55,289 bases of DNA, from assembly GCA_902802265.1 (NCBI GenBank), contig CADCLN010000016.1:1-55289 (forward strand), read 5' to 3'. The stretch's first letter is position 1, and each line of letters begins with the position of its first letter. Positions 6,817 through 35,229 of the stretch are shown here, piece by piece. This stretch comes from an uncultured Bacteroidales bacterium (GTDB lineage Bacteria; Bacteroidota; Bacteroidia; Bacteroidales; Bacteroidaceae). The notes beneath the pieces are model-generated. The model did no database searches. It was not told the origin of the DNA and saw only the letters and a list, made by a program, of their open reading frames with translations. Position numbers and translations under genes: made by a program.

Positions 6817-6901
6817 AAATCACACTTTGATTCTTAGGAATCACGTCATGATTTTTAAGAATCACGTCATGATTTATAAGAATCAAAGTGTGATTTCAAG
6901 A
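6817..6901. repeat. 21-bp phased repeat array with 20-bp outer inverted repeat
   Basis: Four units start at 6818, 6839, 6860 and 6881, exactly 21 bp apart. Each is a 15-nt core of the form AATCA-N5-TGATT plus a 6-nt spacer. The N5 parts are CACTT, CGTCA, CGTCA and AAGTG; the first and last are reverse complements, so 6817-6836 and 6877-6896 form a perfect 20-bp inverted repeat around two identical cores. Spacers are CTTAGG, TTTAAG, TATAAG and TCAAGA. Short reading frames here are repeat translations, not genes. The same scaffold recurs at 26509-26592. Confidence 0.9.
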
Positions 6902-6963
6902 AAAGATTCGGGTGTCGTCAAGAAAAGATGTGTGTGTCGTCAAGAAAAGAATTGGCACATGAG
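6898..6963. repeat. 22-bp tandem repeat after the 21-bp array
   Basis: Three units start at 6898, 6920 and 6942, each beginning AAGAAAAGA. The first two have a 15-nt core plus the identical 7-nt spacer TGTCGTC; the third has diverged in its second half. The array follows the 21-bp array directly and ends about 30 nt before the tig -33 element. The 15+7 layout is the same as in the 35076-35229 array. Confidence 0.8.
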
Positions 6964-6991
6964 GATTCTTCATGGAATTACGAGCTATTTT

Positions 6992-7022
6992 TTTGTGGTT
7001 ACAAGAAAAAGTCGTACCTTTG
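6992..7022 (+). promoter_or_regulatory. tig-clpP-clpX promoter
   Basis: TTTG at 6992-6995, 19 nt, then TACCTTTG at 7015-7022: a full Bacteroidota promoter. The leader that follows contains a 7-bp hairpin (TGTGTCT at 7032-7038 with AGACACA at 7044-7050, 5-nt loop) without a T run, perhaps a 5'-end stabiliser. Confidence 0.85.
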
Positions 7023-7101
7023 CAGCCGATTTGTGTCTGACGAAGACACATTGTGTAAAAATAAAAGAAATAATACATAATTATTAAAGAATAGAATCAG
7101 A

Positions 7102-8439
7102 ATGAACATTTCAATTCAGAACATCGACAAGGTGAACGCCGAGATGACCGTGGTCGTCGAACCGGCAGACTATGCAGAGAATTATAAGAAAGGCATCAAA
7201 GAGGCTCAGAAAAAAGCTAATTTGCCAGGCTTCCGTCCAGGCATGGTGCCCGCAGGACTTATTAAGAAGAAGTTCGGCCCAGGCATCATGGCTGAAGAAA
7301 TCAACGTCCTGTTGCAGGATAAAATGTTTGCTTACATCCGTGAAAACAAGGTAAATATGCTGGGCAGTCCACTGCCAAAGGAAGAAAACAACAGCGTGAG
7401 CATGATGGAAGGCGAGACATTCACTTTCAAGTTCGACATCGCGTTGGCTCCTGAGTTCGACGCAACCCTGGGCAAAGACGATAAGGTTCCATACTACAAC
7501 GTGGAAGTGAGCGACCAAATGGTGGAAAACCAGCTTGACATGTATCGCCAGCGCGGTGGAAAGTATGACACGGTGCAGGAATATCAGGACGGTGACATGA
7601 TCAAGGGTATCATTACCGAGCTGGATGTGGAAACACCCGTCACAGCCGAAGGTGCTGTCATGTTGCCACGCTACTTCAAGAATGACGACCAGAAGAAGCT
7701 CTTCGAGGGTGCCAAGCCCAACGATGTGGTGAAGTTCAACCCTGCTGCTGCCTACGACAACAACGAGGCTGAGCTGACCTCTCTGCTCAAGGTGGCCAAG
7801 GAAGATGCGCTGAACCACAAGGGCGACTTCCAGATTCAGATTACAGAAATCACCCGCTTCGTGCCAGGTGAACTGACGCAGGACCTCTTTGACAGCGTTT
7901 ATCCTGGCGGTGAAGTGAAGACCGCAGAAGACTTCCGTGCTCGCATCAAGGCATCCATTGCCGATCAGTTTGCCAAGGATTCTGACTACAGATTCATCCT
8001 TGATGTACGCAAATACGAAATGGAGAAGATTGGTCAGCTGGAATTCCCCGACGACAAGCTGAAGAAGATTATGCTTGCCAATGCCGACGGCGACCAGGAG
8101 AAGGTGGACCGCAACTACGAGAAGAGCCGTGAGGAACTCACTTGGCACCTCATCAAGGAGCAGCTCGTGGAGAAATGCCAAATCAAGGTGGACGACGACG
8201 ACGTGAAGGGCATGGCCAAGGAAGTGACCCGTATGCAGTTTGCTCAGTACGGCATGATGAACCTGCCTGAAGAATATCTTGAAAACTCTGTGAAAGAGAT
8301 GCTGAAGAAGCGCGAAACGGTGGATAACCTCATCGACCGTTGCATCGAGGTGAAGCTGGGTGCTGCCCTCAAGGCACTGGTTACACTCGACGAAAAGACT
8401 GTAACGGCAGAAGAGTTTAACAAATTGTTTGAAGAATAA
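7102..8439 (+). CDS. tig: Trigger factor
   Basis: Ribosome-associated folding chaperone, 445 aa. The N-terminal ribosome-binding domain has the signature loop GFRPGMVP (residues 47-54, family GFRxGxxP). A central FKBP-like part and a long helical C-terminal domain follow, without a typical FKBP active site, as in Bacteroidales trigger factors. It heads the classic tig-clpP-clpX operon; clpP starts 8 nt after its stop. Confidence 0.96.
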   Translation: MNISIQNIDKVNAEMTVVVEPADYAENYKKGIKEAQKKANLPGFRPGMVPAGLIKKKFGPGIMAEEINVLLQDKMFAYIRENKVNMLGSPLPKEENNSVSMMEGETFTFKFDIALAPEFDATLGKDDKVPYYNVEVSDQMVENQLDMYRQRGGKYDTVQEYQDGDMIKGIITELDVETPVTAEGAVMLPRYFKNDDQKKLFEGAKPNDVVKFNPAAAYDNNEAELTSLLKVAKEDALNHKGDFQIQITEITRFVPGELTQDLFDSVYPGGEVKTAEDFRARIKASIADQFAKDSDYRFILDVRKYEMEKIGQLEFPDDKLKKIMLANADGDQEKVDRNYEKSREELTWHLIKEQLVEKCQIKVDDDDVKGMAKEVTRMQFAQYGMMNLPEEYLENSVKEMLKKRETVDNLIDRCIEVKLGAALKALVTLDEKTVTAEEFNKLFEE

Positions 8440-8447
8440 GAAACCCT

Positions 8448-34739: not shown

Positions 34740-34851
34740 AAAATGTTTTGTGGCGACAAAGATACGGATTATAATTGAAAATAGGAAAAAAGAAAGCGGA
34801 ATTTAACAATTTCCCTTACAGGAATATTTTTCTTACCTAATTTTTTGAAGC

Positions 34852-34859
34852 AAAGTTAC
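34852..34859 (-). promoter_or_regulatory. Possible ligA promoter -7 element
   Basis: TAACTTTG on the minus strand, about 113 nt before ligA; no -33 TTTG at the usual distance. Confidence 0.4.
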
Positions 34860-34902
34860 ACTTGTGGTTTAATTTGTTTATAATCACACAATTAATCTCT
34901 AA

Positions 34903-34946
34903 AAAGTTACATGAAAGTTACATGAAAGTTGCATTAAAGTTACATG
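34903..34946. repeat. Four 11-bp direct repeats (AAAGTTACATG)
   Basis: Units at 34903, 34914, 34925 and 34936 with an exact 11-bp period; the third reads AAAGTTGCATT. One repeat per helical turn looks like an iterated binding site upstream of ligA. Each unit read on the minus strand contains TAACTTT, close to the -7 promoter core. Confidence 0.82.
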
Positions 34947-35075
34947 AATTCAGTCATTTTATGGTGCAAATTTGTCGAAGTTTGTGAAAAAGGGGATGAT
35001 AAGGCGACATTGAAGCGAAGTCAAAGCGACGTTGAGGGCACAAAAACATTATAGAGAAATGGAGTTGTACGTCAG

Positions 35076-35229
35076 TGGCACTGCATTGCTGTAGCGGTGG
35101 GAAAGTTCTCTCGCTGCGGTGGCACTGCATTGCCACCGCAGCAGCAATGCAGTGCCAGACGAGTAGCAAAGTTCTCCCACGGCAGCGAGAGAACTTTGCT
35201 ACGGAGATGGGAGAACTTTGCTTTTTCAG
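35076..35229. repeat. Seven-unit 22-bp phased repeat array
   Basis: Seven units start every 22 bp from 35076 to 35208, each a 15-nt core plus a 7-nt spacer. Two core types alternate in both orientations: GGCACTGCATTGC-like (units 1 and 3, inverted in 4) and AAGTTCTC-like (units 2 and 5, inverted in 6 and 7). Perfect nested pairs: 35076-35091 with 35142-35157, 35102-35117 with 35182-35197, 35166-35179 with 35208-35221. It is G+C-rich inside an A+T-rich gap between ligA and the secreted gene; no gene is encoded. Confidence 0.88.

Follow-up and report, generated by a model that had tools for sequence, protein, structure and literature searches.

The arrays described here resemble plasmid iterons and multi-operator arrays, which likewise repeat at ~21–22 bp and are read as protein sites. 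They differ from iterons, which are direct repeats at one origin, in that they are present as dozens of dispersed copies in draft genomes. In being dispersed intergenic palindromes with families that differ by genome, they are like the REP, BIME and REPIN elements as portrayed in two papers (PMC3116915, PMC12306157). However, the arrays are fixed rows of three to five (in a few cases two) odd dyads at 21–24 bp rather than the inverted REP doublets of REPIN/RAYT systems and, unlike REPINs, they show no conserved pairing. The nearest published relative in kind that we found is BrickBuilt, a MITE of the Bacteroidales species Porphyromonas gingivalis which is intergenic, has 19 copies, a 23-nt tandem unit and inverted-repeat ends, and for which promoter activity in E. 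coli was reported (PMC4596501). BrickBuilt consists of directly repeated units, numbering from 1 to about 23, with a long leader and tail and IS5-family-like ends, and the word stem 'palindrom' is absent from the text of that paper (PMC4596501). Like BrickBuilt, the present arrays are intergenic, multi-copy, short-period repeats of the Bacteroidales, whereas their two to five dyads, cores that differ by family and short flanks set them apart by description. Palindromic candidate structured RNAs (examples of 80–132 bp) have been reported mostly or only from Bacteroidetes, but in that report three of the four named examples are predicted terminators, a difference again drawn by description (PMC8040213). 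Searches with Rfam at the gathering score in 10 sources matched four tRNAs and an RNase P, all away from the arrays, and no published description of the array layout was recognized in a literature search lying mostly outside the subscription journals.

Layout of the window arrays

The window is the whole 55,289-nucleotide stretch analyzed, from a genome designated G000. An earlier note on this DNA had assigned three loci to one design. Arrays 1 and 2 agree with that description: both have 15-nt cores separated by 6-nt spacers at the strict 21-bp period claimed, and 6 of 7 odd-palindrome pairs are found in all eight of their cores. The third locus repeats at 22 bp and contains cores of both orientations, as had been described, but each of the seven 15-nt cores shows just 0 to 3 of the 7 pairs. 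Array 1 belongs to a family A and array 2 to a family B, both with four 15-bp odd palindromes at 21 bp, and array 3 is not of the odd-palindrome design. It groups with other 22-bp tandem arrays of the same genome, and a second locus (L023:2690, G000:C4) alternates the two array 3 unit types at 22/44 bp.

The cores of array 1 are, in order, AATCACACTTTGATT, then AATCACGTCATGATT twice, then AATCAAAGTGTGATT, the last being the reverse complement of the first. The nearly identical spacer series claimed for arrays 1 and 2 proved to be a loose common form, NNTANN with a central TA in family A of this genome and mostly TNYRNA in family B, a likeness weaker than letter-for-letter. The claim that the arrays fold back on themselves stands for the outer arms of array 2 (26488–26546 pairs with 26549–26607) and in part for arrays 1 and 3, in which long arms are 74–89% complementary, but pairing of core with core is not conserved (see below). 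The gene at 7102 downstream of array 1 is presumably tig, encoding trigger factor.

Table 1 Features of the window arrays and gene neighbourhoods that carry arrays in both G000 and G063
Feature	Position	Strand	Description
Array 1, family A	6818..6895	+	Four cores AATCA-N5-TGATT, period 21 bp; spacers CTTAGG, TTTAAG, TATAAG
Array 1 flank	6896..6961	+	Three 22-bp direct units TCAAGAAAAGATTCGGGTGTCG, third diverged
Outward promoter -7 element	7015..7022	+	TACCTTTG, downstream of array 1; precedes gene at 7102
Array 2, family B	26509..26586	+	Four cores AAC-N9-GTT, 21 bp; half-sites mostly AACAACG/AACATCG
Array 2 with outer inverted arms	26488..26607	.	AAAGTACGGCTC...GAGCCGTACTTT; arms 59 nt, 81% complementary
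Array 3	35076..35222	.	Seven 22-bp units, two core types, both orientations; different tandem family
A/A neighbourhoods (G000-G063)			L009-L115, L012-L109, L016-L059, L017-L053
B/B neighbourhoods (G000-G063)			L080-L119, L091-L125, L093-L120
B in G000, A in G063			L086-L101, L088-L106 (both flanking genes), L021-L056

Other repeats were noticed in the window and elsewhere. At 28733–28828 and 45136–45234 of the window, 9-bp tandem repeats (CACAGAG..) are followed by inverted copies and could form large hairpins; similar 9-bp tandem and inverted repeats are found upstream of tig in another genome, G063 (locus L127). Heptamer arrays (GAAGAAT, ATTCTCC, ATTTACC), some as inverted pairs, are at 17180–17272, 20338–20371 and 32625–32692, and five perfect copies of TTGCAACA are at 55049–55088. 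Tandem arrays of 11 bp (AAAGTTACATG and kin) are located at 34903–34948 of the window, L019:19879–19948 and L026:3221–3276, near 22-bp arrays of the array 3 type, and L019:7542–7692 is a near-perfect 22-bp direct array of about six copies of GTGACAACAGTCCCGATGCTTT. The flanks of some A/B arrays (e.g., G063 L119 and L120) contain degenerate 22-bp units (ACTTCGTTTCAAAATTTCCCTC) like the array 3 units of G000, which from their letters may be a link between the three window loci.

Recurrence in the genome and its relatives

The genomes used are drafts, and many are incomplete; genes were called in the analysis itself and many flanks were read by eye. In G000, DNA search with array 1 matched 11 family A loci, all of which were read, and family B was found by DNA search at 18 places including array 2; the other 17 were read and two of these have two cores. 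A pattern of two adjacent A cores is present at 28 places in G000 and in no other genome of the 61 in a sample to which G063 did not belong. G063 (MAG RGIG3754, from roe deer abomasum; 84% complete and rated 7% contaminated) is also rich in arrays. Twenty of its family A loci were read, with more listed, and their inner letters differ from those of G000. Two pairs of fetched G063 loci, L050/L053 and L081/L099, are near-duplicates.

The genomes were scanned for triplets of odd palindromes at equal spacing, each having at least 6 of 7 pairs, at spacings of 10–60 bp. This strict scan gave seven triplets at 21 bp and one at 44 bp (an array-3-type locus) in 455 kb of G000, five at 23 bp and two at 24 bp in 690 kb of ten congeners, and one at 23 bp in 245 kb around the tig and aminopeptidase-like genes of relatives, whereas shuffles of these sequences (one per set) gave no triplets. 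A looser scan (spacings 12–45 bp, low-complexity hits left out) gave eight triplets at 21 bp in G000 plus six scattered across five other spacings. In the ten congeners it gave nine at 23 bp, three at 24, one at 21, one at 20 that comes from reading a 23-bp array in an overlapping way, and four scattered; around the relatives' loci there were three at 23 bp and two others. Ten shuffles together contained one triplet at spacings of 20–24 bp for G000 and four for the congeners. Because G000 has eight triplets at 21 bp in 455 kb versus that one in ten shuffles, and because both families recur elsewhere in the genome, the arrays are not chance hairpins. Applied to 248 kb from 20 genomes outside the family but within the order, the looser scan gave no triplet at 20–24 bp and four at other spacings.

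The congener triplets of the looser scan came from five of the ten samples (G006, G019, G034, G036 and G068), and the other five had no palindrome triplet at 20–24 bp. Further rows are a palindromic 23-bp array in G002 (direct-repeat scan, by eye), B-like rows at ~22 bp in G026, G022, G005 and G011 (DNA search) and an AT-rich five-core row at 21 bp in G019. Sampled sequence from G010 (42 kb), G016 (35 kb) and G024 (80 kb) showed no palindrome row. The core consensuses of congeners, drawn by eye, include CGACCACGWCGTGGTCG, CGACATCGWCGATGTCG, CGTACCCGWCGGGTACG, GACGTGGGGCACGTC, GGTGTGASTCACACC and GGGGAGTGASTCACTCCCC, and these relatives' different core families have one flank in common. The motif CYYC..AA, picked after inspection of the flanks, adjoins the terminal core at 24 of the 30 ends of the relatives' 15 arrays at 23–24 bp. 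It occurs in 118 of 3000 random 20-mers and, farther from the arrays, in 2 of 90 20-mers.

The observation that opened this work was partly confirmed, in that the arrays are real and more extensive than the earlier note said: the further copies it called for are present in this genome and in relatives. Its fixed scaffold with replaceable cores is upheld by these copies, by the relatives' retention of the layout with other cores and by the common flanks. Its strict two-turn period is not general, most of the relatives' arrays being at 23–24 bp.

Matches to the RAYT family (PF01797) were sought in both array-rich genomes. G063, at 84% completeness, had no match. G000 had two, the stronger flanked by another repeat and with no A/B core in the fetched 3.3 kb around it. 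An inverted repeat starting GTAG (GTAGCCAGCCATACAG...CTGTATGGCTGGCTAC) at 26713–26759 of the window is like repeats found on both sides of the Y1/RAYT-like gene of G000 (L226), and is probably a genuine REP family separate from the arrays.

Core words, genomic position and turnover

Pairing was compared in 10 own family A, 16 own family B and 7 G063 family A arrays (own refers to G000) after identical arrays were collapsed. The two-core L098, the three-core L017 and 16 G063 B rows were dropped, L098 and the G063 B rows being outside the 15 + 6 register (core 3 has 16 nt in the G063 B rows inspected). The halves of a core paired about as well with halves from other arrays as with each other (within core versus across arrays, 0.839 vs. 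0.829 for own A and 0.833 vs. 0.846 for own B) and in G063 A they paired less well (0.714 vs. 0.810). For core pairs 1–4, 2–3, 1–2 and 3–4 the within-array advantage was at most 0.012 and the disadvantage up to 0.07. Thus no covariation was found between core halves or between cores in these arrays, contrary to the earlier idea that the cores are kept matched to one another. A long-range hairpin, suggested by array 2 and by some A arrays that look foldable, was rejected, since cores 1–4 and 2–3 pair no better within arrays. Half-site words are kept instead of pairing, as in a protein operator array: AATCA plus two letters is found in 82 of 86 own A halves, and AACAACG or AACATCG in 92 of 128 own B halves. 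The flanks 10–20 nt outside the cores behave differently. Pairing within a locus exceeded that across loci in own B (0.57 vs. 0.40, n = 16) and own A (0.59 vs. 0.49, n = 10) but not in G063 A (0.84 vs. 0.86, n = 7), which favours some local inverted-repeat process in the own A and B loci.

Genes were called by hexamer score and the arrays classed by orientation of the neighbouring genes, with array 3 and the duplicate loci L050 and L099 excluded from these and the promoter counts. All but one of 62 A/B arrays are intergenic or at a locus edge, and one is uncertain. Setting aside this one and 10 arrays at locus edges, the 51 classed arrays comprise 27 in codirectional, 20 in divergent and 4 in convergent gaps, compared with 60, 23 and 15 of the 98 background gaps measuring 150 bp or more in G000. 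The four convergent cases are all own B (4 of 16 classed loci), whereas none of the 25 classed family A arrays lies in a convergent gap (about 4 expected from 15/98) and 11 of 18 in G063 are divergent. At least one gene 3' end adjoins 31 of the 51.

The arrays lie mostly upstream of promoters. The sequence TAnnTTTG, which we take to be the Bacteroidetes -7 element, occurs within 300 bp of the 62 arrays at 90 outward versus 10 inward sites, with an outward site at 54 arrays and outward sites on both sides at 22. Four of the 90 are 2 nt from the array edge and belong to the end of the array element itself; without these there are 86 sites, still at 54 arrays. In 200 draws of 62 random 90-bp intergenic slots the mean was 31 outward (maximum 46) and 22 inward sites (minimum 12), a mean of 24 slots (maximum 36) had an outward site, and no draw was as high as 90 outward or as low as 10 inward. 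The midpoints of 76 gaps gave 47 outward and 27 inward sites, with 35 having an outward site. Note that the control slots are all from G000, whereas 34 of the 62 arrays are from G063; the G000 arrays alone gave 33 outward and 5 inward sites, with an outward site at 22 of 28. TAnnTTTG was found in 59 of 106 ordinary gaps upstream of genes. As family B also occupies convergent gaps, a promoter role is unlikely there.

We read 36 array loci of G063 (34 without duplicates), roughly half of those present, and 10 match G000 array neighbourhoods, some with the same family and some with the type swapped (Table 1). The L021-L056 match extends over the genes on either side and, by eye, over the two divergent promoters, the G000 array there being a two-core B array. 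L011-L058 may be another shared neighbourhood, whereas the L074-L109 and array 2-L106 matches (~52%) look like paralogues. Where G063 flank windows were matched in the G000 sample, an A/B array detected by regular expression lay near the gene in 3 of 9 (six loci) versus 6.6% of positions. Despite retention of position, the cores turn over in concert. Three four-core A/A orthologue pairs are 0.72–0.76 identical, as is any cross-genome pair (0.75), whereas identity of family A within a genome is 0.84 in G000 and 0.95 in G063 (L050 and the three-core L017 left out). The cores of an array resemble their same-genome paralogues, not the orthologue, and the inner words differ accordingly: AAGTG and CGTCA make up 36 of 43 G000 cores, AACAA and CACAA 72 of 76 G063 cores. 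Type swaps at orthologous sites together with homogenization within genomes point to a copying mechanism, one of the two possibilities raised by the earlier note, whose reading of a selected or copied conserved scaffold is thus partly supported.

Arrays at the same places were also looked for in relatives upstream of three genes. Inspection by eye of 420 bp upstream of tig found no A/B array in 29 relatives' loci (among the 30 loci listed; 42 of 45 genomes matched), and so no single gene depends on one genus-wide. The gene next to the L091 array presumably encodes aminopeptidase C. Of 24 other loci 23 could be used (L180 is truncated by its contig), and within 400 bp upstream of this gene an array was seen in G019 alone, the G063 orthologue having its own array farther off than 400 bp. 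For the gene beside L056, which we take to encode phenylacetate-CoA ligase, readings by eye showed that G014 retains the divergent neighbour without the array and that the remaining 27 fetched relatives have different upstream sequence. These three upstream regions contradict arrays at fixed places across the genus.

Explanations for the arrays

Our tentative preference, held at somewhat under even confidence, is that the arrays are dispersed MITE/REP-like cassettes of protein half-sites that lie upstream of promoters and are homogenized genome by genome. Each cassette would consist of two to five odd palindromes (paired 7–8-bp half-sites) in a row with even spacing, mostly on the upstream side of promoters. 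The row is probably filled cooperatively by a cognate dimeric DNA-binding protein, which would isolate or tune the adjoining promoters. Transposition or gene conversion may hold the copies alike within a genome, and if so a core family that is taking over would overwrite the cassettes at old sites. We infer the binding, the promoter effect and the copying mechanism from the arrangement of the sequences: protein–DNA binding agrees with half-sites that follow a consensus, with odd dyads at equal spacing and with arrays seated between divergent promoters, and the spread and homogenization fit a MITE-like unit or gene conversion. Against this reading, periods of 21, 23 or 24 bp mean that the sites are not strictly on one helix face, and part of the promoter bias could come from selection against insertion between promoter and gene.

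A somewhat unlikely alternative is that the arrays are purely selfish MITE-like elements, in which the half-sites bind a mobility protein, such as a transposase, whose gene lies elsewhere and the seat reflects target preference or purging of harmful insertions. Family B of G063, and that family only, is a discrete unit with terminal inverted repeats of 18 nt: the 18-nt end has 68 matches (62 exact), which pair in inverted orientation to make 30 units of 95 bp end to end and a single one of 52 bp, leaving 6 ends unpaired. The 95% average identity of G063 A copies and the intergenic or locus-edge seat of 61 of 62 arrays are also as expected of such elements. However, no direct target-site duplication was visible by eye in 15 distinct G063 B flanks, and no far-apart end pair that could mark an autonomous parent was seen, the 6 unpaired ends aside, for this one family in one incomplete genome. 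Moreover, positions and even type swaps are common to two species, and random intergenic slots lack the promoter bias. Viral spread was rejected as a candidate, as the family B pattern, the one pattern searched for, had 0 matches in viral contigs.

The cassettes of protein half-sites that we prefer must also be weighed against a structural nucleic-acid element in which the cores are small RNA or single-stranded DNA hairpins and the palindrome alone matters, leaving the letters free. Between families the core letters indeed change freely, with odd palindromy and spacing unaltered, and flanks pair better within a locus in own B and own A, although not in G063 A. We consider such an element improbable given the lack of covariation within or between cores and of any Rfam family match at the arrays in the 10 sources. 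Furthermore, 20 of the 51 classed arrays are divergent and 22 of 62 have outward promoters on both sides, and an array between outward promoters would not be transcribed from those promoters. Still harder to credit is a functionless mutational by-product, in which tandem slippage and template switching at quasi-palindromes leave periodic inverted repeats; although short tandem and inverted repeats of other kinds abound in the genome, this process leaves near-identical arrays at dozens of sites, common flanks and the promoter position unexplained. Ordinary intrinsic terminators and RAYT-linked REPs, which would likewise be intergenic, palindromic and numerous, are the least credible and were rejected: a gene 3' end at 31 of the 51 classed arrays and a Y1/RAYT-like gene in G000 are outweighed by the 20 arrays in divergent gaps, which have no 3' end, by the absence of family A from convergent gaps, by the lack of PF01797 in G063 and of A/B cores near the stronger G000 match, and by rows that are not inverted doublets.

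Returning to half-site cassettes, a bolder form that we regard as doubtful would make them control or insulator cassettes across much of the genus, each having three to five odd dyads at 21–24 bp with, in the relatives, a common flank. Their recognition word would be rewritten genome-wide, array by array, at retained positions, as a bacterial operator set coevolving with its predicted binding protein and copied under that protein's control. Dozens of regulatory-looking arrays that change their word in concert while keeping their places would, if this is true, be a testable case of whole-regulon rewiring or, alternatively, of a mobile element placing operators next to promoters. On either reading the genus offers sites that can be counted and cloned and then used to fish for the protein.
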